Assembly (NCBI RefSeq): GCF_016792905.1
Contig: NZ_JAEULP010000022.1
Location: 1-44,862, forward strand
DNA length: 44,862 nucleotides
Direction: 5' to 3'
Origin: Tabrizicola sp.
GTDB taxonomy: Bacteria > Pseudomonadota > Alphaproteobacteria > Rhodobacterales > Rhodobacteraceae
The notes beneath the pieces were generated by a model. It saw only the letters and a program-made list of their open reading frames with translations, ran no database searches and was not told the origin of the DNA. Below, piece after piece: positions 1-33,928 of the stretch; the stretch's first letter is position 1, and each line of letters begins with the position of its first letter. Both the position numbers and the translations under genes were made by a program.

Positions 1-446
1 CCCACAAGTAGTGAAGCTGACACTCACATCATCGGTCCATCCCCTCGCAGGAACTTCCCTAGTGAGCCGATATGCGCGTCTCCGACGCCGATGCGCCCAA
101 ACCGCCCGCATATCCCTTCATTCATTCAAATTTCAAAGAGCCATCGTCAGACAAAAAACGTGCGATCCGCCAATTCCTTGGCGTATCCCTTCGCGCCTTG
201 CCTTCAGATTTTCCGAACTTCCGCTTCCGTCGCCAGCCGCTTCCGTCCGTCACCGTCGCGTCTCCGCTTCGGTGAGGGGGTATTTACGGAGAGGCCGCGG
301 CGCCCGCAAGAGCAAAAAACGCGTTCCTCGCAAAATTTTCGCAGATGGCGGAAAACAGCGCAAAATCTGGTGGTTGGCGCAAGAAACCCCACAATCAACG
401 CGGCACGGCGGCAATATTCTTGCCTTGGCAGCCTTGCCGGAACGGT
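1..446. other. Gene-free stretch at the window edge
   Basis: I see no convincing gene here. Open frames are short and have arginine/serine-rich, low-complexity translations, as expected for non-coding GC-rich DNA. Composition shifts to less GC-rich with A/T runs, for example the caaaaaacgcg tract near 314 and the AAAATTTT core near 331-338. The text around 270-340 (ggggtatttacgg, then cgcaagagcaaaaaa) reminds me of spacer sequence near rRNA operons in Rhodobacteraceae, but that is from memory and unverified. The stretch lies downstream of msrQ, whose stop codon is at 447-449. Confidence 0.4.
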
Positions 447-2322: not shown

Positions 2323-3828
2323 ATGTTCCGCCGACTGATCGCCCTGCCGCTCTGCCTTCTGCTGCTGGTCAGCGCTGCCCTGGCCGAAACCCGGGCGAAG
2401 GATCGGGTGGCGCTCGTCTTCGGCATGGCCAATTACCAGAACGTCACCGCGCTGCGGAACACGATCAGCGACGCGGGCGCGCTGGCGAAGACGCTGGAGG
2501 ACATCGGCTTCGACGTCGATGTCCGGATGGACGCCACGAAGGAGGAAGCCCTCGCCGCGCTGGACAAGTTCGCCTTCGAGGCCGAAACCGCCGACATCGC
2601 GCTGATCTACTTCGCCGGGCATGGCGTCTCCGTCCAGGGAACCACCTTCCTGTTCCCGGTCGACGCAAAGATCAGCGAGGCGCGGGACATCGTCACCGCT
2701 TCGGTCACGATGGACCAGATGCTCGCGGCCCTCGACGGTGCCCGGAAGATGTCGATCCTGATCCTCGACAGTTGCCGCAACAATCCACTGCCCGACGTGA
2801 TCGACCTGCGTGACCCCGAGGTCGCCAAGGGCCTGACCACCGGCAAGGGCGGGCTCGCCGCCCCCTCGCCCGACCGTGGCACGCTTGTCGCCTATGCCGC
2901 GCGGGACGGCGAGGTGGCGCTGGATGGAAGGGGCGCGAACAGCCCGTTCAACATCGCGCTGCGCGCCAACATGGTGAAGCCGAATGTCGAGATCGGCCTT
3001 CTCTTTCGCCAGGTGCGCGATGACGTCCTTGCCGCGACCGACAACCGGCAGGAACCCGCAACCTATGGCTCGCTGCCGGGTGAGCCCTTCTATCTGACTG
3101 CGGACGCCAGCACCGGAGCGGCAGAACCGGGGGTCGAGGATCTGGCCATTGCCTGGCAGCGCGTCGTGGATGCCGACCGCGCGAGCCTGGAGAAATCGGC
3201 CGCGGCCGGGGACACCCGTTCCATCGTCGGGCTGGCGCTGGCCAAGCTTGACCGGCAAGGCACCGACTACGATCCACAGGCGGCGCAGGCACTGCTGGAG
3301 AAAGCGGTGGCGGCGGGCGACCCGGATGCGAAGTACCGGCTGGCCAAGGTGCTGGAGGGCGGGATCGGCGTCGACCCCGACCCCGCCCGCGCACTGAAGC
3401 TGTACGAGGAGGCGGCAGAGGCGAAGATTCCCGCCGCCCTGAACGACATGGGCTATTTCCACTTCACCGGCGAACTTGGCCTGCCGGTCGACCGCGACGC
3501 GGCTCTCGCGCTCTTCCGCGAGGCCGCCGCGCAGGGCCATACCGAGGCAATGTTCAACGTGGCCTCCTTCGCCGCCAACGGTCTGGTTCCGGACCTTGGC
3601 CCGAAGGACGCCGCCGACCTGTTGTATCGCGCCCTGCGCGGCGGCAGCGAGCTGGCGCTGGATGGGCTTCTGAACAACGCCGACAAGTTCCCGAAGGAAA
3701 CCTGGGCCGACCTGCAGGCCACCCTGGCTGAAAAGGGGCTCTATGACGGCAAGGTGGACGGTTCGTTTGGTCCAGGCACCCGGCGGGCGATCCTTGCAGC
3801 TTACGGTATTTTTGAAACGGAGAACTGA
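2323..3828 (+). CDS. Secreted caspase-like (peptidase C14) protein with Sel1 repeats and a peptidoglycan-binding-like C-terminus
   Basis: The 501-residue product begins with a Sec signal peptide (residues 1-21, cut after SAALA). A caspase p20 fold follows (about 26-250) with the His-Cys dyad visible: YFAGHG (His100) and LDSCRNNP (Cys151). Residues about 290-450 contain Sel1/TPR-like helical repeats with alternating AAAQGH and LGxxY patterns. The last 50 residues (GLYDGKVDGSFGPGTRRAI) resemble a peptidoglycan-binding type 1 repeat. The ATG at 2323 is the only start that exposes the signal peptide. The next gene starts one base after the stop, so they form an operon. Caspase-like proteases in Alphaproteobacteria are poorly characterised; the layout suggests a periplasmic protease or scaffold near the cell wall. 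Its substrate is unknown. Confidence 0.85.
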   Translation: MFRRLIALPLCLLLLVSAALAETRAKDRVALVFGMANYQNVTALRNTISDAGALAKTLEDIGFDVDVRMDATKEEALAALDKFAFEAETADIALIYFAGHGVSVQGTTFLFPVDAKISEARDIVTASVTMDQMLAALDGARKMSILILDSCRNNPLPDVIDLRDPEVAKGLTTGKGGLAAPSPDRGTLVAYAARDGEVALDGRGANSPFNIALRANMVKPNVEIGLLFRQVRDDVLAATDNRQEPATYGSLPGEPFYLTADASTGAAEPGVEDLAIAWQRVVDADRASLEKSAAAGDTRSIVGLALAKLDRQGTDYDPQAAQALLEKAVAAGDPDAKYRLAKVLEGGIGVDPDPARALKLYEEAAEAKIPAALNDMGYFHFTGELGLPVDRDAALALFREAAAQGHTEAMFNVASFAANGLVPDLGPKDAADLLYRALRGGSELALDGLLNNADKFPKETWADLQATLAEKGLYDGKVDGSFGPGTRRAILAAYGIFETEN

Positions 3829-9598: not shown

Positions 9599-10393
9599 CT
9601 ATTCCAACGCCGTCTTCAGGGCACGCACCGCATCCGCGTCAGTCTGCCGCCACAGGGCAGGCGCAAAACCCATCTCGACCGCCCGGCCCGTGACCGGGAT
9701 CGTGGCCGAACATGAGGCATGTATCTCGGTGATGCCAAGCGCTTTCAACTGCGGCGCATTGACGGGCGTCACCCCCGACCCCGGCATCACCGTGATCCGC
9801 CCCGCAGCCTGTTTCACCAGCGCCGCGATCCGCGCCGCGCCTTTCTCCGCCGTAACCTCTGCGCCCGAGGTCAGGACGCGGTGAAAGCCCAGCGCCACCG
9901 CATCCTCCAGCGCCGCGCTCATGTCCGGCGCCAGGTCGATGCAGCGGTGCAGGACCAGTTCCAGAGGCGCCGGAATTATTGAAAATTCCGCTTCGGAGCC
10001 TTCAAAGGCTCCGGTCCGATTTCTTTGAAGAAATCGACGACCCTCCATCCCCACCGCAGCCGCCACCAGCCGCCGCAGCACCGTCCCGTCCAGCCGCCCG
10101 TCCGGCAACGAGGCCCCGAGCACCACCCCCGCCAGACCGGCCGCGCGAACCGCGCCGATTTCCACCTCCATCATCCCGACTTCCGCCTTGGACCAGACGA
10201 AATCCCCCGCGCGGGGTCGGATCATGGCGACAACGGGCACCCCACACTCCGCGGCCAGCCCGATCAACCCCGCCGAGGGCGTCAGCCCGCCCAGCGCCAG
10301 CGCCGCGCACAACTCGATCCGCTCCGCCCCTCCGGCGACCGCCTGCGCCAGCCCCTCCGCCGTATCGACGCAGACCTCCAGCCTCACCCCCAT
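9599..10393 (-). CDS. cutC: CutC family protein carrying an in-frame palindromic element
   Basis: CutC proteins are TIM-barrel proteins named for copper homeostasis in E. coli, although that role is debated. This 264-residue copy has the family motifs: LEVCVDT at the N-terminus, GGAERIELC (21-29), GGLTPSAGL (35-43), IRPRAGDF (58-65), the LHRCIDL version of the usual FHRAFD (148-154), RVLTSG, and MPGSGV near the C-terminus. Between VGMEG and APLELVLH there is an extra segment absent from normal CutC. Residues 120-141 are encoded exactly by a 66-bp triple-palindrome repeat (9971-10036). The start overlaps the end of the ROK gene by ten bases. Whether the barrel still folds is unknown; the frame and all other motifs are intact. 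Confidence 0.9.
   Translation of the reverse strand: MGVRLEVCVDTAEGLAQAVAGGAERIELCAALALGGLTPSAGLIGLAAECGVPVVAMIRPRAGDFVWSKAEVGMMEVEIGAVRAAGLAGVVLGASLPDGRLDGTVLRRLVAAAVGMEGRRFLQRNRTGAFEGSEAEFSIIPAPLELVLHRCIDLAPDMSAALEDAVALGFHRVLTSGAEVTAEKGAARIAALVKQAAGRITVMPGSGVTPVNAPQLKALGITEIHASCSATIPVTGRAVEMGFAPALWRQTDADAVRALKTALE
9971..10036 (-). repeat. 66-bp triple-palindrome element inside cutC, copy 1
   Basis: Three consecutive 20-bp palindromes lie at 9971-9990, 9994-10013 and 10017-10036, separated by 3-bp spacers. Their cores on the plus strand are GGAATTATTGAAAATTCC, GGAGCCTTCAAAGGCTCC and GATTTCTTTGAAGAAATC. The whole is 66 bp, that is 22 codons. Read on the minus strand it begins precisely on a codon boundary of cutC and has no stop. 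A second copy with the same order, orientation relative to the minus strand and length lies at 32871-32936. The match between two unrelated loci shows that this is a mobile or dispersed repeat, not native cutC sequence. Confidence 0.9.
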
Positions 10394-14318: not shown

Positions 14319-14321
14319 CGC

Positions 14322-14340
14322 GGTTGGCTGGGTGCCAACC
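14322..14340. repeat. GGTTGGC hairpin after bfr
   Basis: A perfect 7-bp inverted repeat, GGTTGGC and GCCAACC, with loop TGGGT, starts four bases after the bfr stop and runs into CCACCATGCC. The GGGT...AACCCACCAT text resembles the GTAGGGTGGGT family at 4498 and 19309. It may end bfr transcription, although no U-run follows. Confidence 0.5.
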
Positions 14341-14552
14341 CACCATGCCATCGACCACCCATTCGAATGCCTGGCGCGATAGCCGGGCATTTCCTTTGAC
14401 GATCCGGTGTTCGTCCTCGCCCTCCCCCTCTCCGCCTGCCGCAAAGACCATTCCTGGCACCGGACGCCGAGGCAGGTCGCCGAAGTGCGAACCATCTTGA
14501 GATCAAGTATCCGCGTGAATGTTCGCTCGATGCCCCCGCGAGGCGCAAGAAG

Positions 14553-15092
14553 ATGTCGGTATCCTATGAGACCATTGAGTGTGAGCGCTGCGGCTATGCT
14601 GAAACCAGCTTGGTGACAGCAGGAAAGTTTGTCTGGTCGGACGGCAGCGAGGAATACTGGTTCAGCCGACAACTTGCGGTCTGCAAGAATTGCGAATGCG
14701 TTGTCGCAATGGAGGAGTTTCCGGAACCGGCTGTTCTGGCCGAGGCGCGGAAACGCCTTGGCAGCTATTGGCGTAAGCTCACCAGGAACTACGGAGTTGA
14801 TGACGTGGGCATGATGGCACGCAGCAAGGGGCTTGCAGTGGCGGAGAAAGTCATCGCGTTGCAGCGCAAGCCCGTTTGCCTTTCCTGCGGCAGCGCGAAC
14901 GTAGCGCCGCTCGTGACCCCTGACGATGGTGGTTCCGACGACACGCGGATTCGATCCTTGGGTATCCAGCATCCGGGATGCGGTGGAATGCTGACGATTT
15001 ACGGATCTGGTGGTGATCGCGCAGCACCGCTGGAAGTGACGCGAATCTACGACCTCCATGGAAGGCAGATAGGGACGCGACCCGGATGGTAG
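14553..15092 (+). CDS. Zinc-ribbon-like protein of unknown function, AT-richer than its neighbours
   Basis: The 179-residue product has four cysteine pairs in two blocks: CERCGY (10-13) with CKNCEC (44-49), and CLSCGS (about 109-112) with HPGCGG (about 139-143). These could bind one or two zinc ions. No signal peptide or membrane helix. I do not recognise a family. Codon use is clearly less GC-rich than flanking genes (for example gaa, tca, agt, att and gga are common), which points to recent transfer. It sits alone between bfr and a 699-bp repeat-bearing gap, and interrupts what is usually a compact iron cluster. The ATG at 14553 has a weak GAGG-like site upstream. Confidence 0.65.
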   Translation: MSVSYETIECERCGYAETSLVTAGKFVWSDGSEEYWFSRQLAVCKNCECVVAMEEFPEPAVLAEARKRLGSYWRKLTRNYGVDDVGMMARSKGLAVAEKVIALQRKPVCLSCGSANVAPLVTPDDGGSDDTRIRSLGIQHPGCGGMLTIYGSGGDRAAPLEVTRIYDLHGRQIGTRPGW

Positions 15093-15328
15093 GATTGTTA
15101 TCTGTTCACTGAGTCCTTGACGCTGTTCAGCCGTACCGATGAGCACGGGCGCGCAATTTCACGCACCATTCCTCACCGACACTCTTGCAAGTCGGCCGCC
15201 AGCCCGCTCTCCCCTCGGTGAACCGGGCCAAACGCGGGTCTCACCCGACCCTCACCACCGGGCCAGACCCGCCTTGATCCCAAATCGCCCGGCGCAAGAC
15301 CCGTCCACACCATGCGCCCAGCCCTACC

Positions 15329-15429
15329 TTTCACCTGTCCCCAAATATCCCCGCCGGAGGCCCTTCGCCCGAGCCGGTTGGCCGCAAGGCCAGAGGCGAG
15401 AGAAAGGCTTGCGCGTCAGCGCTCAATTT
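15329..15429. repeat. Dispersed CCAAATATCC-type repeat, copy B
   Basis: Starts TTTCACCTGTCCCCAAATAT, then CCCCGCCGGAGG. The tail reads GAGCCGGTTGGC, a small hairpin GGCCGCAAGGCC, AGAGGCGAG, GGCTTGCGCG and CAGCGCTCA. The same tail, in the same order, follows copy C at 19481, so these two are the longest copies of one family. Copies A (8744) and D (37919) keep mainly the head. Confidence 0.7.
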
Positions 15430-15491
15430 GCGAACCGCCGCCGCCCACACGACGCCCCCCCGCCCGTCCCGACGGCCAGCCCCAAGCGCCT

Positions 15492-15515
15492 CCCCTCCCC
15501 CACCGTGGGGAGGGG
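15492..15515. repeat. CCCCTCCCC/GGGGAGGGG hairpin
   Basis: A strong G/C hairpin with arms CCCCTCCCC and GGGGAGGGG and CACC/GTG near the tip, followed by more G-rich sequence (ccgggggtggggggc). Similar short GGGGAGGG palindromes are common in intergenic DNA of Alphaproteobacteria. No U-run follows, so a terminator role is uncertain. Confidence 0.5.
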
Positions 15516-15585
15516 CCGGGGGTGGGGGGCATCGCGCCAGATTCCGATTCGCTCCGAATGGTTAACGCCCAAGTCCCCCTACGCA

Positions 15586-15628
15586 CGTATGGCCGCTTTC
15601 CAGACGCATTCCATACGGTTTCCATACG
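15586..15628 (+). promoter_or_regulatory. Phased TTCCATACG direct repeats, possible operator
   Basis: TTCCATACG occurs at 15609-15617 and again at 15620-15628, so the repeats are 11 bp apart, about one helical turn. An inverted CGTATGG lies at 15586-15592. This cluster is about 165 bp upstream of the di-haem oxidoreductase gene and could bind a regulator of the iron operon. I do not recognise it as a Fur, RirA or Irr site. Inference from spacing and symmetry only. Confidence 0.35.
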
Positions 15629-15791
15629 TAAATCCTTCGGCCAACCTCTTGATCTAACGCACCGAACTCTCCGCCGCCCCGACGCCACCCCCCAAGATCG
15701 TGAAACACCCCCTGCGACCCCCCGCCGCAGCCTTATTTTCCGATTGAAACGCTCGGAAAAGCGGCGCTATCTCCCGGCAAAGGAGCCCACC

Positions 15792-31733: not shown

Positions 31734-32867
31734 ATGGCCGCGACCCTGGAAGGCATCCGCGTCATCGAGCTGGCGCGGATTTTGGCTGGACCCTGGGCCG
31801 GGCAGACGCTCGCCGACCTGGGCGCCGACGTGATCAAGGTCGAGGCGCCGGAAGGTGACGATACAAGGCGCTGGGGGCCTCCGTTCATCGAAAGCCACGG
31901 CGAGAAGACCGCCGCCTATTTCCACTCGGCCAACCGGGGAAAGCGGTCGATCACCTGCGATTTCCGCACGGCGGAGGGGCAGGAAATCGTGCGTCGGCTG
32001 GTGGCCGATGCGGACGTGGTGATCGAGAACTTCAAGGTCGGGGGGCTGGCGAAGTATGGTCTCGACTGGGAGAGCTTGCGCAAGGTGAACCCCCGGCTGA
32101 TCTACTGTTCCATCACCGGCTTCGGGCAGGACGGGCCCTATGCGCATCGGGCCGGGTATGACTTCATCATCCAGGGCATGTCGGGGCTGATGTCGGTCAC
32201 CGGCCCTGCGGACGGGCAGCCGCAGAAGGTGGGGGTTGCCGTCACCGACATCTTCACCGGCGTCTATGCGGCGACGGCGATCCTTGCCGCACTGGTGCAG
32301 CGCGGACGGACGGGCGAGGGCCAGCAGATCGACATGGCGCTTCTGGACGTGGCGACCAGCGTGATGGCGAACCAGGCGATGAACTATCTGGCAAGCGGCA
32401 AGGCACCGGGGCTGATGGGCAACGCGCATCCGAACCTTGCGCCCTATGCGGTGTTCGACTGCAAGGATGGCTGGCTGATCCTGGCCACCGGGAACGATGC
32501 GCAGTATCAGCGGCTGTGCCGGATCCTGGGGCTGGAGGCGATGGCCACCGAGCCGCGTTTCCTGACCAACGCCGACCGCATCGCCAACCGGGCCGAGATG
32601 ACCGAACGGCTGACTGCGGCGACGAAGACCTGGGCGAAGGCCGATCTTCTGGCCGCCTGCGAGGCTGAGGGGGTTCCGGCCGGGCCGATCAACGATCTGG
32701 CCGAAGTTTTCGCCGATCCGCAGGTGGTGGCGCGGGGGATGCAGATCGCGCCGGAAGGGATGAAGGGCGTGCGGAGCCCGATGACCTTCTCGGGCGCCGA
32801 ACTGGCGCTGGACCGACCCGCACCAAGGCTGGGGCAGCATCAGGAAGAGGTGCTGGGGAAGGTGTAG
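31734..32867 (+). CDS. CaiB/BaiF family CoA-transferase
   Basis: The 377-residue family III CoA-transferase moves CoA between carboxylic acids. Conserved parts are IRVIELARILAGPWAGQTLADLGADVIKVE at the N-terminus (described here as two blocks, residues 8-19 and 20-37), NRGKRSITCDF (68-78), the FGQDGPY segment (130-136), and Asp172 in VTDIFTGVYA, which aligns with the catalytic Asp of formyl-CoA transferase. Substrate cannot be told from sequence. It starts at once after the DsbA stop (taaATG). Its 3' end faces lpxK, with the 66-bp triple palindrome between. Confidence 0.9.
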   Translation: MAATLEGIRVIELARILAGPWAGQTLADLGADVIKVEAPEGDDTRRWGPPFIESHGEKTAAYFHSANRGKRSITCDFRTAEGQEIVRRLVADADVVIENFKVGGLAKYGLDWESLRKVNPRLIYCSITGFGQDGPYAHRAGYDFIIQGMSGLMSVTGPADGQPQKVGVAVTDIFTGVYAATAILAALVQRGRTGEGQQIDMALLDVATSVMANQAMNYLASGKAPGLMGNAHPNLAPYAVFDCKDGWLILATGNDAQYQRLCRILGLEAMATEPRFLTNADRIANRAEMTERLTAATKTWAKADLLAACEAEGVPAGPINDLAEVFADPQVVARGMQIAPEGMKGVRSPMTFSGAELALDRPAPRLGQHQEEVLGKV

Positions 32868-32870
32868 AAC

Positions 32871-32936
32871 CGGAGTTTTCGAAAACTCCGCTGCGAAGCC
32901 TTTGAAGGCTTCGGCTCGATTTCTTCGAAGAAATCG
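32871..32936 (-). repeat. 66-bp triple-palindrome element, copy 2
   Basis: Three 20-bp palindromes, at 32871-32890, 32894-32913 and 32917-32936, are spaced by 3 bp. Cores are GGAGTTTTCGAAAACTCC (perfect), GAAGCCTTTGAAGGCTTC and GATTTCTTCGAAGAAATC (perfect). The copy fills the gap between the convergent CoA-transferase and lpxK genes almost completely: it begins four bases after one stop and ends two bases before the other. Arm differences from copy 1 are compensated on both sides, which suggests selection for pairing or palindromic gene-conversion. Confidence 0.92.
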
Positions 32937-32938
32937 GG

Positions 32939-33928
32939 CTAGAGTCCCAGCCGGTCGAATGCGGTGTCCATCTCCGACCAATCCTCGACCTGCAACCTGA
33001 CCACCAGCGTCAGCACCTTCGCCCGCCACTGCGGCGGCAGGCGGGCGGCGTCCTTTTCGGTCGTCACCAATTGCGCCCCGGCCTGGTCGGCCTCCATCTC
33101 CAATCGCCGCAGCAAGGTTTCCGACAGGGTTTCATGATCCCCCAGCGCCTCGCCCCGGATTACGTCTGCCCCCTGGGCGCGGAGGGTGGCGAAAAAGCGG
33201 GAGGGATCGGCTATCCCGGCAAATGCGAGCACCCGCTCACCTTTCCAGTCCATCCCCATCTGCAGGGGCTGCAACTGCCCGCGCAGGCGGGGAAGGTCGA
33301 GCGGTCCCCAGATGGCATCGAACTGCACCTGCGCCGCGCTGTCGCCGATGGCCAGCACCAGATCGGCGCGGGAAAGGCCCGTGGCCACGGGCTCGCGCAG
33401 GGGTCCTGCCGGAATGCAGCGCCCGTTGCCGAAGCCACGGGCGGCGTCCACGACGACAAGGCCAAGCGAGGGCTTCACCGCCGGGTTCTGGAACCCGTCG
33501 TCCATGAGGATCGCCCCGGCCCCGGCCGCCTCGGCCGCGCGAACCCCCGCCGCGCGGTCCCGCGCCACCCAGACCGGCGCGAAGGCCGACAGGAGTAGGG
33601 GCTCGTCGCCCACCTCCTCGGCGGTATGGCGGCTGTCGTCCACCCGCAGCGGGCCTTCGAGCCGTCCGCCATACCCGCGGCTGACCACATGCACCTTGCG
33701 CCCCCGGGCGGAGAGCCGCTCGATCAGCGCGATCACCGTGGGCGTCTTGCCGGCACCGCCCGCCGTCAGGTTGCCGACGCAGATCACCGGAACCTGCGGG
33801 ACATAGCCGGGCTGCCGGAGCCGCCGTGCCGTGGCTGCGGCGTAAAGCCAGCCGAGCGGCGCCAGCGCGCGTGGCAGAAGGCCCGGGCGGTCCGGCGGGC
33901 GCCACCAGAAGCCGGGCGCGCGCATCAT
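32939..33928 (-). CDS. lpxK: Tetraacyldisaccharide 4'-kinase
   Basis: LpxK phosphorylates the 4' position of the lipid A disaccharide at the inner membrane. The 329-residue product has an N-terminal membrane-associated helix (PLGWLYAAATARRL), the Walker A-like VGNLTAGGAGKTP (51-63), and SRGYGG and DDGFQNPA (LpxK signature DDGxQ). The start overlaps the waaA stop by four bases (ATGA). The stop lies two bases from the triple-palindrome element. It works after LpxB and before WaaA in the pathway. Confidence 0.95.
   Translation of the reverse strand: MMRAPGFWWRPPDRPGLLPRALAPLGWLYAAATARRLRQPGYVPQVPVICVGNLTAGGAGKTPTVIALIERLSARGRKVHVVSRGYGGRLEGPLRVDDSRHTAEEVGDEPLLLSAFAPVWVARDRAAGVRAAEAAGAGAILMDDGFQNPAVKPSLGLVVVDAARGFGNGRCIPAGPLREPVATGLSRADLVLAIGDSAAQVQFDAIWGPLDLPRLRGQLQPLQMGMDWKGERVLAFAGIADPSRFFATLRAQGADVIRGEALGDHETLSETLLRRLEMEADQAGAQLVTTEKDAARLPPQWRAKVLTLVVRLQVEDWSEMDTAFDRLGL

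Follow-up and report, generated by a model that had tools for sequence, protein, structure and literature searches.

The window analysed here is a 44,862-nucleotide stretch of a Tabrizicola sp. contig, and it carries two copies of a short palindromic element, one read as part of the cutC gene and one lying between convergent genes (Table 1). The first-pass annotation had described the element as a 66-bp unit of three 20-bp palindromes with 3-bp spacers, and this is what copy 1 contains, with palindromes A (9971–9990, 8 of 10 pairs), B (9994–10013, 9 of 10 pairs), and C (10017–10036, 9 of 10 pairs). The second copy that it had reported, with the same architecture in a noncoding gap, is also there: its palindromes follow each other in the same order A-B-C with 10, 9, and 10 of 10 pairs, and it fills the 71-bp gap (32868–32938) in which the CoA-transferase gene and lpxK converge. 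Single palindromes of such quality are common in the window (41 places versus a mean of 46 in 20 Markov simulations); triplets at 23-bp spacing occur at only two places, the two copies, and in none of the 20 simulations, and the C motif with up to three mismatches gives four matches (two sites, both strands) where 0.01 are expected. Rfam at gathering score over the window yields one tRNA and nothing on the element, and at E ≤ 0.1 over six element loci three tRNAs and a cobalamin riboswitch, again none on the element; a cobalamin riboswitch at 162–379 (minus strand) of locus L005 lies about 1.1 kb away from an element copy. Elsewhere in the window, 2323–3828 (plus strand) encodes a protein with a caspase domain (Peptidase_C14), Sel1 repeats, and a weak peptidoglycan-binding match, and our own gene finder called no gene in the 1.4 kb of 14319–15743 despite ORFs of 172–179 aa.

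Table 1. Element copies and the genes that hold or flank them, in window coordinates
Feature	Position	Strand	Remark
cutC (PF03932), 264 aa plus stop	9599..10393	-	22-residue element-encoded stretch inside
Triple-palindrome element copy 1	9971..10036	+	read as cutC codons 120-141 on minus strand
CoA-transferase family III gene	31734..32867	+	stops 3 nt ahead of copy 2
Triple-palindrome element copy 2	32871..32936	+	between convergent genes
lpxK, tetraacyldisaccharide 4'-kinase gene	32939..33928	-	ends 2 nt past copy 2

Translation bears out the claim that copy 1 sits in cutC exactly on a codon boundary, in frame and free of stops, with the repeat and nothing else making up the 22 codons (RFLQRNRTGAFEGSEAEFSIIP). 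The Pfam CutC match to the window protein is split in two stretches, and the residues that flank the insert place are contiguous both in human CutC (3iwp, 149/150) and in E. coli CutC (1twd, 113/114), which confirms the earlier statement that the latter has no extra residues there. In the predicted structure (modelled from two sequences, with pTM 0.74 and mean pLDDT 70, versus 34–53 for four other models), CutC forms a barrel and the insert falls between helix 103–112 and strand 145–150, in the segment that joins helix 4 to strand 5, where it is modelled with a short strand (118–124) and a helix turn (134–137). Alpha-beta loops in such barrels lie opposite to the strand ends that bear the active sites.

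Searches of the host genome and its relatives with the 66-bp unit uncovered a dispersed repeat family. Queried with copy 1, BLAST hits the host genome at 24 places, and queried with copy 2 at 28; copy 2 is absent from the former, and the worry that it might be a chance match is answered by its own 28 places and by a covariance model that lists both copies. Most host copies are full A-B-C units; six of the 24 first found (L010, L012, L016, L017, L020, and L024) are partial or altered and were left out of covariance model R1, which was built from 19 of 25 copies. At E ≤ 0.01 on both strands, this model returns 67 rows in the host genome that we collapsed to about 34 places, the weakest of which may be chance, and all 23 exact C palindromes of the genome fall within these 34 places (control 0). 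All copy numbers are lower bounds, with the BLAST and model lists scoring part of the candidates (e.g., 22 or 150). Copies are present in 20 of the 24 other genomes of the genus that were searched and in none of 16 genomes of other families, and collections of phages and plasmids gave no match at E 1e-5. Across the family Rhodobacteraceae, 10 of 295 genomes sampled evenly from 294 genera match at E ≤ 1e-8, and these belong to nine genera including the own one, i.e., to eight further genera; among the matches listed, named carriers are Tabrizicola, Pseudogemmobacter, Gemmobacter, Xinfangfangia, Rhodobacter sp., and Fuscovulum. One genome of another genus (G102) has two palindromes only. Several loci from other genera (L202, L203, L204, L205, L206, L207, L211, L215, and L221) keep the three-palindrome build with different arms, and in L207 the second base pair is altered in all three palindromes simultaneously. 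The true spread of the element may thus be wider than what the covariance model sees. The element is also carried by a 4.26-Mb chromosome from a metagenome assembly titled Exiguobacterium profundum isolate SSD5 (CP059262.1, our L118); this name looks wrong, the element being otherwise seen in Rhodobacteraceae-like records.

Units of the family are 66 to 68 bp long, with CGGAGTTTTCGAAAACTCCG (or a variant with A-T in pair 5) as typical arm of A, CGGAGCCTTCAAAGGCTCCG of B, and CGATTTCTTCGAAGAAATCG of C. In a set of 211 copies, Watson-Crick pairs make up 93–100% at the nine outer positions of every palindrome, and pair 5 of A is GC in 102 copies, AT in 86, CG in 15, TA in 2, and something else in 6. 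Part of the material comes from an exact pattern over B and C that found at least 112 stretches (the best 80 of 112 shown), a sampling that biases the pair statistics of B and C toward perfect pairs and leaves A unaffected. The pair just outside A is formed in 86% of copies (56% when shuffled, z 12.0) and the one just outside C in 76% (38% when shuffled, z 12.5), which brings A and C to 22 bp each. No such covariation is seen for the pair flanking B (27% paired versus 42% shuffled); B is 20 bp long, and 191 of the 211 copies have TG or CA at its centre. Judged by these alignments, palindromy is maintained through paired changes. An outer stem closing the three hairpins into a cloverleaf had been suggested by GG upstream and CC downstream; pairing between the two flanks across the element shows no excess over shuffles, so this stem was rejected, and what covaries is the outer pair of A and that of C.

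Is this constraint one of RNA? On the sense strand of co-directional spacers, G-U pairs are no commoner than A-C pairs (18 versus 19, and 14 versus 20 in a later, better-scoring set), which argues against a purely RNA-level constraint. Downstream of the element, neither strand carries a U-run (the share of T reaches 0.29 at most over +1 to +12, that of A 0.26 at most over -12 to -1), which excludes a canonical intrinsic terminator. Wobble pairs are in no excess on the transcribed strand, and the constraint looks symmetric between strands. Intrinsic terminators between convergent genes are hairpins right behind stop codons that can be used from both sides. The element is like them in exactly these respects but differs in its lack of a U-run, in being a repeated family sequence, and in what would be a small share of convergent gaps; its roughly 34 places are presumably far fewer than the convergent gene pairs of the genome, which speaks against a general terminator.

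The first-pass annotation had proposed a family of protein-invading palindromic repeats, and it is here that we part from it: the in-frame insert in cutC stands, but the family does not mainly invade proteins and instead hugs the 3' ends of genes. Of 256 distinct copies scored in the fetched loci (those of one genome under two names merged by identical flanks), 245 are intergenic and 11 lie within genes predicted by our home-made gene finder, namely nine in cutC, one at a glycosidase start, and one in a C-terminal tail. Even this coding share is overstated, given that eight of the nine cutC copies entered through cutC searches; a second glycosidase copy (G043) scored too low for the scan and is outside the 256. 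Of the 245 intergenic copies, 203 have a stop codon no more than 30 nt away, with a median distance of 9 nt to the gene 3' end over 355 ends, and where both neighbours are known (239 intergenic copies) these are convergent in 118 cases, co-directional in 114, and divergent in 7, compared to 179, 735, and 247 among 1161 element-free spacers. Both neighbours are shared with another copy for 117 of 221 intergenic copies (41 clusters, in an earlier set), orientation is identical in all 134 same-site pairs, and spacer identity is 0.643 in same-site pairs (127 pairs) versus 0.441 in random ones, so that many copies are inherited in place. At the gap that holds copy 2, among 20 genomes with both neighbours, only three have the full unit (G000, G007, and G016), which weighs against a 3'-end role; G047 has an A-C double without B, G011, G008, and G006 have decayed units, and what the others show there is a remnant, a different hairpin, or almost nothing (the right neighbour was not located in another 10 genomes). 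In three congeners (loci L357, L361, and L370), the equivalent gap contains an unrelated AT-rich hairpin.

Among known repeats, the element comes closest to REPs, which the available part of PMC3733652 describes as short palindromes that lie for the most part between genes in convergent or co-directional arrangement, with convergent ones mostly less than 20 bp from 3' ends. REPs are also read in frame within proteins in several genera, and in recB of two Xanthomonas species they occupy about the same site (PMC3733652, same portion); the idea that in-frame palindromic repeats would be new beyond Rickettsia therefore falls. Like REPs, our element is a short, dispersed palindromic sequence found mainly between genes near their 3' ends and occasionally in frame. 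Unlike them, it has three different palindromes in fixed order, REPs being mainly singletons and dimers as far as the same text goes, it occupies about 34 places in this genome, and it lacks GTAG/CGTC tags at its ends. Within 8 nt of 422 ends (211 copies), GTAG/CTAC occurs 27 times versus 6 in a control 40–48 nt away, an excess that is probably due to nearby TAG stop codons, and CGTC/GACG occurs 22 times versus 25. The RAYT Y1 transposase (PF01797) is not found over cut-off in any of 32 genomes, with two weak matches, in a search whose control gave matches in 5 of 14 well-known genomes. The element is thus best read as a REP-like family without GTAG/CGTC tags and with no RAYT over cut-off in those 32 genomes.

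Two other groups of repeats also share traits with it. In the accessible portions of PMC10969869, PMC2635572, and PMC3733652, RPEs are palindromic repeats of about 150 bp whose in-frame reading adds residues to the products of functional genes, both internally and N-terminally. The in-frame copies in protein genes are a likeness (cutC in 9 of 27 genomes, a glycosidase N-terminus in 2 of 6), whereas the size of 66 to 68 bp and the 245 of 256 intergenic copies set our element apart from RPEs, many of which are intragenic by that description. Enterobacterial RU/ERIC repeats, a class of small mobile sequences, are likewise intergenic with some intragenic, coding copies, and are set apart from our shorter element by their 103–168 bp units as given in the available text of PMC2759123; the part of PMC7901474 at hand concerns dif only. 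In-frame palindromic repeats as such are hence already known from REPs and RPEs. The three-palindrome order of this family is not described among the open-access PMC matches listed, none of which describes the repeat family, and five core palindromes searched as letters in open-access PMC text gave no match.

Taken as a whole, we think that the element is probably a REP-like triple-palindrome family that acts at gene 3' ends and whose cutC copy is a tolerated by-product. The palindromes would spread slowly, in the manner of REPs, and settle behind genes, where three hairpins may terminate or shield transcripts arriving from either side; a two-way 3'-end element would be their usual role. Copies would seldom survive in coding DNA. 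The one in cutC may be a by-product of the family's spread that is tolerated because its length is a multiple of three, its frame is free of stops (which also holds for 182 of 211 intergenic copies when read in the cutC frame and strand), and its loop presumably points away from the catalytic end of the barrel. The palindromes themselves would then persist by a process at the nucleotide level, such as hairpin selection or hairpin-templated repair, and not through the peptide.

Presence of the cutC copy across the genus is patchy. We surveyed 32 genomes, the own one included, of which 28 have a cutC match and 27 are evaluable (in G014 the match covers the C-terminal part only), with CutC lengths taken from tblastn matches that may be clipped by a few residues. 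The insert is present in 9 of the 27 and absent from 18, and the 9 carriers have it at the identical site, in the same orientation and frame, with every reading frame open; their alleles are 25–28 codons longer than empty ones. In other genera, a cutC match was obtained for two (G168 and G326) of eight genomes with copies of the repeat family, and both are empty. The first-pass annotation had named, as grounds against its proposal, that all close CutC homologues might share these residues with no similar repeat elsewhere; the opposite is found, with homologues lacking the insert in 18 genomes of the genus as well as in E. coli and human and with relatives of the repeat throughout the genome.

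Regarding how this pattern arose, we lean slightly toward one old insertion followed by many precise losses or allele exchange, as opposed to repeated insertions at one site. All nine carriers lie on one side of a well-supported branch of the ClpA tree, together with 11 empty rows (20 rows in all), and the other 10 rows are 6 empty genomes and 4 without cutC (two rows are imperfect, G018 with a stop in the extracted piece and G016 with 708 of 871 residues matched). Moreover, a paired change in A that is rare among intergenic copies (5 of 211) is common to G004 and G021, and G020, G009, and G021 share the rare spacer TCC. In the cutC trees, however, whose bootstraps were both yet to settle, a starred branch separates some carriers from others, and this disagreement with the ClpA tree makes exchange of cutC alleles a likely part of the history. 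The three trees (cutC and ClpA) require 6, 7, and 8 gains or losses of the insert, and shuffled labels need equally few in 60, 173, and 396 of 500 trials, which is no clear clustering. Nor do the spacers of the cutC copies betray a common origin, with an identity of 0.476 (7 copies) against 0.441 for random pairs and 582 of 2000 random sets as high, and no footprint is visible by eye in the empty alleles.

A purely selfish repeat, copied by a trans-acting enzyme that needs the palindromes and found at 3' ends only because these are harmless sites, is possible if rather doubtful. It would accommodate the copies in coding DNA (cutC and the glycosidase start), the wobble pairs without strand bias, the simultaneous change of the second base pair in L207, and the difference at cutC between sisters of the ClpA tree (G001 empty and G020 with insert; G000 with insert and G044 empty). 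On the other side, a search for target-site duplications at the copy ends yielded none that are clear, the direct repeats (6 nt in 2 copies, 5 nt in 4, and 4 nt in 16) being raw counts without a chance control, and the Y1 transposase stays below cut-off as described above. These counts, together with flank pairing that does not exceed shuffles, are also what a comparison with MITEs, which have terminal inverted repeats and target-site duplications, brought to light. The 117 of 221 copies at shared sites in fixed orientation further imply that movement is slow. A more specific scenario, in which the element is precisely gained or lost across the genus at a fixed site, orientation, and frame of a functional cutC by a mover other than RAYT and is kept palindromic at the nucleotide level with its peptide drifting, strikes us as unlikely, and we put it forward very tentatively.

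It is far less probable still that the 22 residues are a domesticated peptide kept for the benefit of CutC. The nine carriers with identical site, orientation, and frame, all of them open, would fit this idea, but how the insert evolves does not. Outside the insert, cutC has a pN/pS of 0.37 (pS 0.43), compared to 1.17 (pS 0.14) inside it, or 1.02 for the seven well-formed copies, and 0.71 for intergenic copies read in the cutC frame; identities at codon positions 1, 2, and 3 are 0.88, 0.80, and 0.84 in the insert versus 0.82, 0.85, and 0.62 in the rest of the gene. By this measure cutC outside the insert is under purifying selection and the insert is without amino-acid constraint, and the contrast in both statistics, from nine sequences, points to an insert that changes as DNA while the remaining cutC is kept as a protein. 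Seven of the nine cutC copies retain their palindromes; in G008 and G021 these have partly decayed and the residues have changed along with them, and the 18 of 27 evaluable genomes without the insert evidently do without these residues. Across the nine copies, 94.2% of pair cells stand, more than in all 500 shuffles, and the covariation score is above 500 of 500 shuffles, in tests that related sequences can pass without any structure; further pair types show no excess (4 versus 4.8 in shuffles). It thus seems to be a nucleotide-level process rather than the peptide that keeps the palindromes in cutC. An assembly or annotation artefact, to which the several metagenome assemblies among the genomes might lend some colour, can practically be discounted given nine separately assembled carriers with differing cutC sequence around the insert and a family of 256 distinct copies in the fetched loci.

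The carriers and non-carriers of the genus amount to a natural series for one gene, with some cutC alleles holding an in-frame palindromic repeat and others empty. Such a series offers a direct test of the old question of whether repeats of this kind are selected for their peptide or only tolerated, and the comparison made here, on nine sequences, points to the latter. The family also defines a three-palindrome 3'-end element with relatives in eight further genera at the strict limit.

Beyond cutC, the element is found at the start of a glycosidase gene (MGH1-like) behind sugar permease genes in G000 and G043, two of the six genomes whose start is visible. In the relatives G017, G044, G019, and G023, the glycosidase starts with MFDF directly at the permease stop, in three of them with overlapping TGATG. 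G000 and G043 have lost that ATG (RLFDF) and have a new one further upstream, so that the element becomes part of a new N-terminus, in the orientation opposite to that in cutC. The true start could lie elsewhere than at the new ATG, a caution that the available part of PMC3733652 raises for REPs at gene starts; on inspection, G000 has no in-frame ATG, GTG, or TTG between the element and the conserved part of the glycosidase. The B palindrome of G043 has wholly different arms that are again 9 of 10 paired and stays in the glycosidase frame of G000, as though an exchange of entire arms could leave the gene intact. At the other end of a coding sequence, the C-terminal tail of a DUF2834 protein (L111) terminates inside the element.
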